From contig NZ_JAGETW010000005.1 of assembly GCF_017571475.1 (NCBI RefSeq), positions 124,001-188,000 of the forward strand: 64,000 nt of DNA, read 5' to 3'. Positions within the stretch are counted from its first letter, which is position 1. Every line of letters starts with the position of its first letter. The notes under the pieces are model-generated. The model searched no databases and was not told the origin of the DNA. It was given only the letters and a program-made list of their open reading frames with translations. Both the position numbers and the translations under genes were made by a program. Positions 615 through 3,950 of the stretch are shown here, one piece after another. This DNA is from Thiomicrorhabdus sp. 6S3-12. GTDB lineage: Bacteria > Pseudomonadota > Gammaproteobacteria > Thiomicrospirales > Thiomicrospiraceae.

Positions 615-712
615 TGATAAATATAAGTTTCCCTCTCGTTCAAAAAAGCAAAAGGGAAACTATTTAGCCGAAAGACACGCTGCCACGATTAAAAATTATT
701 AATCGGCCTTTT

Positions 713-907
713 TTAGCTCTTCTCGAATTCTTCTCTTCGCTGTTCACAGGCCTTTTCCAGTAGCTCAAACTGTTTGTTGCAGCGGCGGCAGTTGTGGCAC
801 AAGGTCAGGTGAGTTATCAGCCAGGATTGTTCTTTAAAGGTCAGTTTTCGGTCTTGTTTTTGCGACATCAGTTCGGTGGCGTGTTTACAGGAGCTCATCT
901 TTTTCAT
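713..907 (-). CDS. Short zinc-finger anti-sigma factor
   Basis: A 64-residue cytoplasmic protein, probably the anti-sigma factor of the ECF sigma gene just upstream. It has an H-L-T-L-C-H-N-C stretch (residues ~33-40), matching the His-x3-Cys-x2-Cys core of the ZAS/zf-HC2 anti-sigma fold, with more Cys residues nearby (CRRC) and an early SCKH. There is no membrane segment, so if it senses something it does so in the cytoplasm, for example a metal or redox change at the Cys cluster. Its start overlaps the sigma stop by four bases (ATGA), implying translational coupling. Function is inferred from motif plus position. Confidence 0.75.
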   Translation of the reverse strand: MKKMSSCKHATELMSQKQDRKLTFKEQSWLITHLTLCHNCRRCNKQFELLEKACEQRREEFEKS

Positions 908-1503
908 TGTCTATTCTCCTCAGCGGTAAACCAGTTTTGTTCCAGGCAGGCGCGCAGTCTTAGCCGTGCGCGGTGCAGAATGGTCCAGCAGTTGTGTTCG
1001 CTAATGTGCAGAGATTCGCAGATTTGTGCGGTTTCAAATCCCATAAACTCGCGTAGCGTAAATACGCGTGATGTCTGCTCCGGCAGGTGAAAGACGCAGA
1101 TATCAAAAACCTGCCAAAAATGTTCGTTTTCCAAAGTCTGATAAGGGCTGCTCCAGTTCGAAGGCGCATGTTCGTTGTGCCAGTGTTCGTCTTTTTGAAA
1201 CCAGCCGTCGGTATCGGGCAGCTTTGATTCGTTATATTCGAAAGTCCGGATTTTTGAGTGATGACGATAGAGGTCAATCAATTTGTGTCGCAAAATGCCA
1301 AATACCCAGGTTTCCAGAGACGACTTGCCGGCAAACTTTTCCAATTGTTTCCAAGCGCTAATTAAACATTCCTGAACTGCGTCTTCGGCATCTGCTTCGA
1401 ATTTCAGATGCAATTTCGCAAAGGCAATCAGCCTGGGACGTAGAGGATCTATGCGTTGTTCGAATTCTGTTTGGCTGCAATTTTGACATGGTTCCGCTGG
1501 CAT
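904..1503 (-). CDS. ECF-type RNA polymerase sigma factor
   Basis: A 199-residue sigma-70 family protein. Region 2 spans roughly residues 20-85 (AEDAVQECLISAWKQLE, then SLETWVFGILRHKLIDLYR) and region 4 roughly residues 138-190 (LPEQTSRVFTLREFMGFETA followed by a helix-turn-helix, SEHNCWTILHRARLRLRACL). It has no region 3, as expected for ECF sigmas. It lies 29 bases downstream of the DoxX gene, on the same strand, and overlaps the anti-sigma gene by 4 bases. In the Hvf/Buf/Gig type operons of other proteobacteria an ECF sigma of this kind controls a Cys-rich peptide and DoxX gene, so it probably activates its own cluster. The N-terminal CQNCSQ is unusual and could bind metal. Confidence 0.88.
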   Translation of the reverse strand: MPAEPCQNCSQTEFEQRIDPLRPRLIAFAKLHLKFEADAEDAVQECLISAWKQLEKFAGKSSLETWVFGILRHKLIDLYRHHSKIRTFEYNESKLPDTDGWFQKDEHWHNEHAPSNWSSPYQTLENEHFWQVFDICVFHLPEQTSRVFTLREFMGFETAQICESLHISEHNCWTILHRARLRLRACLEQNWFTAEENRQ

Positions 1504-1532
1504 TGATTATTTAGCCTTCCTTGTATTGACTC

Positions 1533-2153
1533 TTATCGGTTTGCCGCGCCTCCTTGAATCCAACGATGAATCCAATAGTCGGCACTGACATAACGACCGC
1601 CGCCGGTAAACAGCAAGCTTAATAGCATTATGAAGTAGGTAGCGGCAAATTCAATCCCGTTATTGAGAATAACAATCTGTCCATTACTGGTCAGCCATTC
1701 AAAATTACCGTGCGTTTGCAGGATTTGCTGGCTCATCGCCAGCTGCTGCTGTGCATCGAATACCTGTTGATTAGCGAGCCAACTTGAAGCATCTGAAATA
1801 GCCAGCCAGCCGTTAGGCCAGTGTACAGTGACAGCGGCAACGATCATGGTGATCATTAAGGGGATCGAGAACCAGCGCACTGCCAAGCCGACAATCAAAG
1901 CGATACCGCCAAGAAATTCCGAGCCGCCGGCGAGTAGGGTCATCAGTTCGGGAAAGGGCAGTCCGAGCCCCCATTCAGGGTTACCAAACCAGGCGGAGGT
2001 GTCCGAAAAGTTAGCCAGTTTATTCCAGCCAGCCTGCATAAAGATCGGGGCAAGATAGAGGCGCAGTAATAGTGGCGCCAAGCCGTCAAAATGCATTAAT
2101 CCTGAAAGAGCCGTCTGATAGAGGTTGGCAGATTTTATGATAAGCGTGTTCAT
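1533..2153 (-). CDS. DoxX family integral membrane protein
   Basis: A 206-residue membrane protein of the DoxX superfamily. It has four or so hydrophobic segments, and the family pattern is visible in APLLLRLYLAPIFMQAGWNK near the N-terminus, LLAGGSEFLGGIALIVGLAV in the middle and YFIMLLSLLFTGGGRYVSAD at the end. An upstream in-frame ATG (2198) exists, but the ATG at 2153 is preceded by AAGGAGAAAG at proper spacing and starts at the conserved part, so I chose it. DoxX proteins accompany metal-stress RiPP peptides in Hvf, Buf and Gig operons, where their exact role is unsettled. Here the gene sits 93 bases behind a Cys-rich EGKCG-type peptide and 29 bases before the sigma gene, almost certainly one operon. 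Confidence 0.88.
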   Translation of the reverse strand: MNTLIIKSANLYQTALSGLMHFDGLAPLLLRLYLAPIFMQAGWNKLANFSDTSAWFGNPEWGLGLPFPELMTLLAGGSEFLGGIALIVGLAVRWFSIPLMITMIVAAVTVHWPNGWLAISDASSWLANQQVFDAQQQLAMSQQILQTHGNFEWLTSNGQIVILNNGIEFAATYFIMLLSLLFTGGGRYVSADYWIHRWIQGGAANR

Positions 2154-2246
2154 GATCTTTCTCCTTTGAATTGAGGAGAGAAAGGAAGACCTGAGCATAG
2201 AATCTAGATCATCGTATGCCCAGGACGGTTAGACAAAGTAATGAGT

Positions 2247-2528
2247 TTATTTACCGGCCCCGCATTTAGATGGTTCTTGAGCAGGTTTAGCAGCCCCACA
2301 TTTAGAAGGTTCTGGAGCGGGTTGAACGGCTCCGCACTTTGTTGCCTCTTTCTGTTGACCGCCACACTTGGCTGTACCGCATTTGCCTTCCGATGTTTCG
2401 GTCTGTGCAATTACTGTAAAGCCGTTCTGAATAGTGGCAAAAGGATTATCTGCAGCAGCGCTGGCATTCATCGATACCGACAAAAGCATTGCGGAAAGAA
2501 TCGAGTAAAAAAATGTTTTGGTTTTCAT
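2247..2528 (-). CDS. Secreted Cys-rich EGKCG-type peptide (HvfA-like)
   Basis: A 93-residue exported low-complexity protein. It has a signal peptide (to about residue 26, ending ASAAAD), then NPFATIQNGFTVIAQ, then five Lys-Cys-Gly units: one EGKCG, one TAKCG, one ATKCG and two PSKCG. The last three units are spaced 12 residues apart by Pro/Ala/Gln linkers. The 'NPF...G(F/Y).V' segment followed by EGKCG is the layout of HvfA-type precursors, whose Cys residues are turned by MNIO (DUF692) enzymes into copper-binding oxazolone/thioamide groups. No MNIO or DUF2063 partner is beside it or elsewhere in this window. The start is supported by AGAGG 8 bases upstream. It is first in the operon with DoxX, sigma and anti-sigma. 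It could be modified by a remote enzyme or act unmodified as a thiol metal binder. Confidence 0.75.
   Translation of the reverse strand: MKTKTFFYSILSAMLLSVSMNASAAADNPFATIQNGFTVIAQTETSEGKCGTAKCGGQQKEATKCGAVQPAPEPSKCGAAKPAQEPSKCGAGK
2259..2331. repeat. 36-base tandem repeat inside the KCG peptide gene
   Basis: Two imperfect 36-base units encode the 12-residue period (S/T-K-C-G-A-x-x-P-A-x-E-P) of the peptide's C-terminus. This suggests the metal-binding motifs multiplied by internal duplication and that copy number may vary between strains. Confidence 0.65.
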
Positions 2529-2605
2529 GATAGCGACCTCTGATTTATAAAAAGCTGAACTTAAATAACTGGGCGATTAAAGCCCGGGTTTTGAGTTGTT
2601 CACTA

Positions 2606-2634
2606 CTTAGTCGCAGTTGATTTGAATTCCTTAC
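2606..2634 (-). promoter_or_regulatory. Candidate ECF promoter of the KCG-peptide operon
   Basis: Read on the minus strand, GTAAGG (2634-2629) is followed after 15 bases by CGACTAAG (2613-2606), about 80 bases upstream of the peptide start. This resembles the GTAACC / CG-rich bipartite promoters of ECF sigmas that control peptide-DoxX operons. It is a weak consensus match and only a suggestion. Confidence 0.3.
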
Positions 2635-2652
2635 ACTCTTTTATGAAAAAAA

Positions 2653-3672
2653 TTACCAGAGTTTTCCTGTATCGCAGTCTCTCCAACGTCCAGTGGCGTG
2701 ATCTTTTGTAGCGCATTTTTCCAGAGAGCCGTCTGGATTATAGTAATAAATTTTTTCACTAACACCGTTAAACCAAATAGTCTCGATTCGTTTACCGGAA
2801 ACCTTATAATCAACGCTGTGCCCCACTTTTTGCCCTTGGCTATATTGGTCAACCGAAGTTAAAAAAGGCCCATTTACTGCCGGCATCCAAGTGTAGGTTT
2901 CAAAAATGCCGTCAAGTTTGCCGTTTTTCCAGTTTTTTCGTTTGGCAAAATAGAAGCTGTTTGAATGCTTTGTCCATTGAAGTTCGGTGCCATCTTTTTT
3001 TCCGTGAAGATAGGGGGTTTCAGAAATGATATGGCTGCCGGCACCTGAATAATAGCAACACTGGGTATAGGTGTTACCACCCGTTACGCCGTTTGTATAG
3101 GCCGGCCAGCAACGCTTGTTTTGGGTGTTGAATTTAGGACAGGACGCATAGTACGGTTCGCTGTTATCGGATGGGGACGGGTTTGAGCCGGCTGAATAGT
3201 CTGGAGCGGGGATAGACTCTAAAAAATCAAAGTTGCTTAACTCTCCGGTACGGGTGTCGCTATGTTGCCAGCGAGTGTTGTTTTGTTGCTGGGATTCCAG
3301 TCGCTTGATATCGGCTGCCAGCTGAGGAAGCAGCGTCTGTTTAGCATGTTGCTTTGATAAATTGGACAGCTCGATAGTCTGTCTGACCGAGGTTCGGATA
3401 TATTGCTCAAGAAACGCTCGAGAGGTGTGGATATTGAACTGGGGATTGGAAAGAAGGTTTGTGGTGATATTTCGTTTGACCTGATCAATGGTGACAAACT
3501 GCACATCGTTCATAAAGATGGAGGTAGGCAACCAGAGAATATTGGGATCATTAACCATCTGGTTAAGTTCGTTGTACCACTGTTTCTTTTCAGCCAGACT
3601 CTCTGCTTTTGCAGTCTGTAAGGTAAAAGAAATGAGCAGGAAGCTCATCACGATAATACTGATTTTTTTCAT
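2653..3672 (-). CDS. Secreted protein with MORN-like C-terminal repeats
   Basis: A 339-residue exported protein of unknown function. The ATG at 3672 has GGAGG seven bases upstream and begins a good signal peptide (MKKISIIVMSFLLISF...AKA); an ATG 39 bases further upstream is less likely. The middle (residues ~75-150) is helical and Gln-rich. A Cys-containing stretch follows (SCPKFNTQNKRCWPAY, then TQCCYY). The last ~120 residues show repeating units such as HGKKDGTELQW, NGKLDGIFETY and YYNPDGSLEK, resembling the MORN-2/YwqK type of beta repeat. It is read in the same direction as the KCG peptide but lies 124 bases upstream with a possible promoter between, so co-transcription is uncertain. No enzyme motif is seen. 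Confidence 0.65.
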   Translation of the reverse strand: MKKISIIVMSFLLISFTLQTAKAESLAEKKQWYNELNQMVNDPNILWLPTSIFMNDVQFVTIDQVKRNITTNLLSNPQFNIHTSRAFLEQYIRTSVRQTIELSNLSKQHAKQTLLPQLAADIKRLESQQQNNTRWQHSDTRTGELSNFDFLESIPAPDYSAGSNPSPSDNSEPYYASCPKFNTQNKRCWPAYTNGVTGGNTYTQCCYYSGAGSHIISETPYLHGKKDGTELQWTKHSNSFYFAKRKNWKNGKLDGIFETYTWMPAVNGPFLTSVDQYSQGQKVGHSVDYKVSGKRIETIWFNGVSEKIYYYNPDGSLEKCATKDHATGRWRDCDTGKLW

Positions 3673-3950
3673 TCTCGTCCTCCGGGTTTTCTGAAAAAGC
3701 TTGAGAGTCATGGCTTACCTAGTATGATTTTCATAAATTGAATTTTCAACAGGGTCTAAAGTATTTTTTTAAATACGAATAAAACAGAAAAAATTTTCTA
3801 TTCAACTTTACCTAGTCATCATTTCAGGGGTTACGGCATCTGTTCGAGCACAGGGTATGCCTTTACAGGTTTTTTAGCTGCGTTGTATGATGCTGTAAAT
3901 TTTTTGCAGTTTTTTCGCTGTAACCCTATCCTCCACTTAGACTTGCCGGG

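Follow-up and report, generated by a model that had tools for sequence, protein, structure and literature searches.

Organization of the four-gene operon

Positions 713 to 2528 of the window (the whole stretch of 64,000 nucleotides that was analysed) hold four genes on the reverse strand, with a candidate promoter on their 5' side and a possible terminator on their 3' side:

2607..2635, reverse strand: candidate ECF promoter, TGTAAGGA-N14-CGWCTAA, 5' of the KCG peptide gene and also found 5' of the peptide genes of relatives
2247..2528, reverse strand: KCG peptide, 93 aa, with a Sec-like signal, NPF...GF.V and five KCG motifs; above the NF050137 cut-off; orthologs in G031, G009 and G011
1533..2153 (alternative start 2198), reverse strand: DoxX of the HvfX family (NF050144), 206 aa, zero cysteine
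904..1503, reverse strand: ECF sigma factor of the TIGR02943 family, 221.7 bits
713..907, reverse strand: zf-HC2 anti-sigma, 64 aa, with HLTLCHNC; above the PF13490 and NF052368 cut-offs
627..660, reverse strand: inverted repeat 3' of the anti-sigma gene, a possible terminator judged by eye

The original prediction had placed here a signal peptide followed by NPF...GF.V and five KCG motifs, then genes for DoxX, an ECF sigma factor and an overlapping zinc-finger anti-sigma, and we recovered all four reading frames in this arrangement. It had also called the genes leftward and tightly spaced: the direction holds for all of them and the spacing for DoxX and ECF (29 nt), but not for the peptide and DoxX genes, which lie 93 nt apart when DoxX is started at the ATG at 2153, a start that is kept in the three relatives with the operon. 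The ECF and anti-sigma genes overlap by 4 nt.

Against NCBIfam profiles, the peptide scored 25.2 bits with the KCG domain NF050137 (cut-off 19.5) and 30.7 bits with the HvfA equivalog NF050188, far below the cut-off of 95, while DoxX scored 233.4 bits with HvfX NF050144 (cut-off 80), the ECF factor exceeded the TIGR02943 cut-off of 162.2, and the anti-sigma scored 57.9 bits with NF052368 (cut-off 50). The Pfam families DoxX, Sigma70_r2/r4_2 and zf-HC2 all exceed their cut-offs in the operon proteins. The operon shows the pattern of an ECF factor with a small zf-HC2 anti-sigma, having both proteins, overlapping genes and, by sequence only, a promoter of its own. The peptide lacks a twin arginine ahead of NPF and the five KCG motifs, of which one is still EGKCG; here and below, Sec-like and twin-arginine signals were assigned by motif and visual reading. 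A beta-helix fold, published as a prediction for other EGKCG proteins, was rejected for this peptide, the structure model of which has a mean pLDDT of only 46 and no confident fold, and the helical model of DoxX had zero match in the PDB at E<=0.001. The gene 5' of the operon, at 2653-3711 and likewise on the reverse strand, encodes a secreted 352-aa protein that has no confident family; it adjoins the operon in G031 too and is not in the loci listed for G011 (L068) and G009 (L069).

Enzyme genes in the genome and its relatives

The original prediction that the genes for both modifying enzymes are missing from the operon and the window held and extends to the whole genome: the genome search that it had called for, run on the window's own genome (G000, rated 100% complete), gave zero matches at E<=0.001 to PF05114 (MNIO, DUF692) and to PF09836 (DUF2063), the latter having been searched genome-wide in G000 only. 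PF05114 is likewise without a match in the other three genomes with the operon (G009, G011 and G031), two of which, G011 and G031, are single-contig; the suggestion that a remote MNIO modifies the peptide is therefore not supported here. The same PF05114 search detected MNIO in 18 of the 32 genus genomes, mostly near E 1e-100, leaving 14 without, and MNIO is present in 32/62 genomes of the bacterial family.

Because the flanks of 45 of the 80 DoxX loci retrieved are without MNIO, a DoxX of the HvfX type is not specific to the captophorin/HvfA system, and we discarded DoxX as a marker of MNIO systems. Elsewhere, 10 of the 12 genomes tested have an MNIO though most of their DoxX loci have none nearby. 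Remnants of the enzyme genes were sought with tblastn over 20 loci, and the sole match was to DUF2063 at E 0.32; short blastp matches to MNIO (L064, E 4e-4) and DUF2063 (L071, E 4e-4) were set aside, their frames overlapping longer genes. YcaO was rejected as a substitute enzyme: six MNIO-free genomes with KCG peptides have a single copy each, on other contigs or far off, of a length that we take to be that of a housekeeping YcaO. Among MNIO-free genomes of other genera, 0/16 matched NF050137, a soft count because at E<=0.01 the NF050137 census failed to pick up the known KCG peptides in G000 and G031. We also observed a KCG peptide gene followed by DoxX in L138, from a Chromatiales MAG of unstated completeness, with zero MNIO in the record set searched.

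Conservation of the operon and its candidate promoter

The order peptide-DoxX-ECF-antisigma, which the original prediction had proposed to look for in relatives, recurs identically in G000, G009, G011 and G031, that is in 4/32 genus genomes, all of them MNIO-free. Exactly these four genomes have a TIGR02943 protein above cut-off, encoded in the operon. A chance assembly, which had been considered for the case that the linkage was absent from relatives, does not agree with this conservation, and as judged from gene order the four-gene linkage is more than chance. Identity to the window proteins goes down to 77% for DoxX and 63% for the ECF factor. Between G000 and G031, dN/dS is 0.17 for the peptide (a value from 8 changes), 0.17 for DoxX, 0.09 for the ECF factor and 0.12 for the anti-sigma; for the peptide of G000 versus G009, dN is 0.18 and dS is saturated. 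Comparing window positions 713-3711 with L070 of G031, we noted a dS of 0.10 for the peptide and 0.07 for DoxX versus 0.41 for the ECF factor, 0.63 for the anti-sigma and 0.47 for the upstream gene, a local dip in divergence that perhaps reflects recombination. In the DoxX tree the window group has a support of 0.999 and stands beside stand-alone DoxX genes at only 0.74.

The regions 5' of the peptide genes in all four genomes share the candidate promoter, and over a stretch of 30 nt G000, G009 and G011 have 22 identical columns versus a maximum of 16 in 100 Markov-sampled sets. We scanned 12 genomes (four with the operon and eight without), allowing one mismatch. Each of the 4/4 operon genomes has one exact site, 5' of the peptide; because the pattern was derived from these four sites, their recovery is by construction, and the new information is that the operon genomes have no second site. 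The eight other genomes gave zero sites with up to one mismatch. The reversed pattern, used as a control, gave 6 matches across the 12 genomes, so lone one-mismatch matches are not rare. A shorter pattern matched four of 80 named DoxX loci (L101, L130, L174 and L157): the match in L101 is G009's own operon, that in L157 falls inside an ECF gene, and those in L130 and L174 lie ~100 nt 5' of KCG peptides, both in MNIO-containing KCG operons of other bacteria.

Signal type and cysteine context of KCG peptides

We read one MNIO-adjacent peptide in each of 25 of the 32 MNIO-positive family genomes (left out were G014, G050, G052, G054, G055, G056 and G059); this reading was not blind, the loci having been found partly through twin-arginine/KCG motifs. 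The twin-arginine motif RRxF is present in 24/25 of these peptides, the exception being G062, and absent from the window peptide. It is also lacking in 8/10 peptides from MNIO-free genomes, and the two exceptions are the second KCG genes of G000 and G031, each beside a truncated DoxX. These second peptides (L066:8678-9387 in G000:C12 and L067:9177-9936 in G031:C1) have 10 and 13 cysteines, and the adjacent DoxX remnants span ~50 residues. By eye, G049 (L187) also has a twin-arginine KCG gene near a DoxX-like sequence.

In the 25 MNIO-linked peptides, 171 of 179 cysteines (151/158 plus 20/21) stand in [E/D]GxCG, compared with 5/75 in the ten peptides of MNIO-free genomes, counts that are not independent because these ten stem from few lineages; the CG context is kept at 75/75 of their cysteines. 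In the fragmentary but MNIO-positive G014, an unlinked KCG peptide combines AKCGA repeats with a Sec-like signal. Two limits apply to how these differences are read. Signal type alone says little because Sec-type signals occur on MNIO-linked peptides, commonly outside the family and within it in G062. Similarly, because FonBC once modified an AKCGA variant (PMC13097082), the motif change is no proof of escape from modification, and we rejected the lost [E/D]G as such a proof. Because the HvfA signal peptide serves as the leader for HvfBC (PMC13419390), by analogy an exchange of the signal would plausibly remove recognition by the modifying enzyme.

A parallel case at the yajL locus

We located yajL in 25/32 genus genomes. 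In genomes with MNIO, genes for a twin-arginine KCG peptide, MNIO and DUF2063 lie downstream of it, adjacent in some (for example G002, G004, G010 and G012) and separated by an insertion of three genes in others (G008, G013 and G029). Because the direct yajL-KCG-MNIO arrangement is also present in G051, of a sister genus, the gene order suggests that this site is ancestral. In G005 and G030, both MNIO-free, a KCG peptide whose signal is Sec-like is encoded between yajL and a hydantoinase-like gene, with spacings of ~80-90 nt. Among the remaining genomes, nothing lies between in G009, G011, G021 and G027, one other gene does so in G000, G031 and G007, the flank differs in G001 and G003, G017 ends there, and yajL of G028 has an internal stop. 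A midpoint-rooted tree of two proteins from 24 genomes groups G000, G031, G021, G009, G011 and G007 with a support of 97, and G005 plus G030 join this group at a support of 47 only. The yajL-site peptide of G005 and G030 could have been replaced instead of altered.

The MNIO-free genome G005 encodes a second KCG peptide; downstream of it are genes for a different ECF factor, an anti-sigma of the RskA type and a DsbH-like thioredoxin (L063:4115-7420). G030 has the same layout (L064:4577-7894); Pfam was run on G005 only.

Proposed function and alternative explanations

With moderate confidence, and reading from genes and their conservation, we suggest that selection maintains the operon as a derivative of the captophorin/HvfABCX system that does without the modifying enzyme; the peptide is probably a plain thiol metal trap. 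The second option of the original prediction, an unmodified thiol-peptide/DoxX module, fits better than a remote MNIO. In the proposed mechanism, stress acting on the small anti-sigma, at its zinc/cysteine site, would free the ECF factor, which would transcribe only the peptide operon, itself included. The peptide would exit via Sec with its thiols free and, in the periplasm, trap soft metal ions, most likely Cu(I), or reactive sulfur or oxidants. DoxX would assist in some way at the membrane. Copper is favoured as the trapped metal, by analogy, because the modified KCG products are copper binders (PMC13097082) and because KCG-MNIO genes adjoin a large pump gene in four sister-genus loci (L203, L204, L205 and L207), the pump being of the AcrB type by Pfam in L203. 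Like these loci, L075 (G026:C23) has a twin-arginine KCG gene beside a large pump operon.

As to the origin of the system, we consider it about an even call that a RiPP reverted to an ordinary peptide. One lineage would have discarded MNIO and its partner, the twin-arginine signal, which would double as the enzyme's leader, would have given way to a Sec-like one at one conserved locus, [E/D]G would have drifted with every CG kept, and the bare thiol peptide would have been redeployed at least two times beside different ECF/anti-sigma pairs, the anti-sigma being of the zf-HC2 type in four species and of the RskA type in G005 and, judging by layout, G030.

Three other explanations bear on this reading. 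An enzyme may still modify the peptide: an MNIO whose replicon is missing from the assemblies, one that has diverged beyond what PF05114 detects, or an enzyme of another class. The remote MNIOs that serve unlinked peptides elsewhere and the one YcaO in each of the six MNIO-free KCG genomes speak for this; we nevertheless think it unlikely, given that PF05114 finds nothing in four species, two of them single-contig, yet detects MNIO in so many congeners, and that the YcaO genes lie at a distance from those of the peptides and are presumably housekeeping in view of their length. The operon might also be what remains of a RiPP cluster in decay, functionless now. Decay does occur in this lineage, as the second KCG genes of G000 and G031 beside truncated DoxX show, and the repeat number is variable (93 and 81 aa); against this stand reading frames and a promoter that are intact in four species and a dN well under dS, and we regard such a leftover as very improbable.

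A further possibility is that the module responds not to metals but to oxidative, chlorine or reactive-sulfur stress, in which case the thiols would be attacked by oxidants or persulfide or would buffer them. The bacteria concerned, which are marine, are sulfur oxidisers, and the other MNIO-free KCG operon, that of G005, runs on into the DsbH-like thioredoxin gene. In Haemophilus influenzae, the ECF factor RpoE2 with a 67-aa anti-sigma is HOCl-responsive and controls a DoxX/DUF692-type/DUF2063 operon (PMC7907618). Set against these points are the copper binding of modified KCG products and the pump genes of the sister-genus loci, and we judge this explanation quite unlikely as a whole; by analogy, HOCl or sulfur stress would be the main alternative to copper.

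KCG peptides are understood as metallophores since an iron enzyme converts their cysteines. If a selected, enzyme-free system is the correct reading, a regulated and conserved peptide without the enzyme would show that the unmodified form is useful by itself, and the operon offers a natural enzyme-minus comparison for the contribution of the modification and for the action of DoxX in its absence.

Comparison with known systems

Antoine et al. (2025; PMC12452194, Table 3) counted 67 of 2,583 Buf_EGKCG genomes without MNIO, a count given without explanation in the text available to us, which considers that precursors unlinked to MNIO genes might be unmodified. These 67 genomes resemble the present case in having a precursor without a genomic MNIO, and operons such as this one could account for part of them; operon, promoter, synteny and signal change are not described in that text, which mentions neither Tat nor twin-arginine. 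In the literature covered, mostly at abstract level and with most subscription papers outside its scope, we found no description of an MNIO-free KCG-DoxX-ECF operon. Beyond the published count, our comparisons point to an MNIO-free operon with conserved linkage, a candidate promoter and a parallel case at yajL.

The HvfABCX and captophorin clusters (oxazolin, fontiphorin and gonophorin) are a class marked by 5-thiooxazoles on the cysteines and by copper binding. Like them, the window operon combines an exported KCG-repeat peptide with an HvfX-type DoxX and stress-linked regulation, but its genome is without MNIO and the DUF2063 partner, its repeats are mostly [A/S/T]KCG[A/G] rather than EGKCG, and it has its own ECF factor and anti-sigma. 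With H. influenzae RpoE2-HrsE it shares an ECF factor and a small cytoplasmic anti-sigma over a DoxX operon, whereas that operon contains DUF692-type and DUF2063 genes and the sigma factor has further targets such as msrAB (PMC7907618). The sigF-nrsF bufferin operon of Caulobacter is also an ECF-controlled peptide/DoxX operon, one that answers heavy metals, but it differs (PMC3511200) in its DUF2282 peptide, its membrane anti-sigma NrsF, the presence of MNIO and DUF2063, and its promoter, GTAACC-N16-CGAA. The Pseudomonas aeruginosa plasmid pPALO11 (L227) has sigma, zf-HC2, KCG, DUF692, DUF2063 and DoxX in another order and without the motif. In the Solemya velum gill symbiont (L174), the order is KCG-MNIO-DUF2063-DoxX-ECF-antisigma with a promoter motif as in the window. 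The window operon equals this order minus MNIO and DUF2063, which in L174 stand between the peptide and DoxX; an operon of the L174 type may have been acquired and its enzyme pair then lost, or the operon may have been acquired without the pair.
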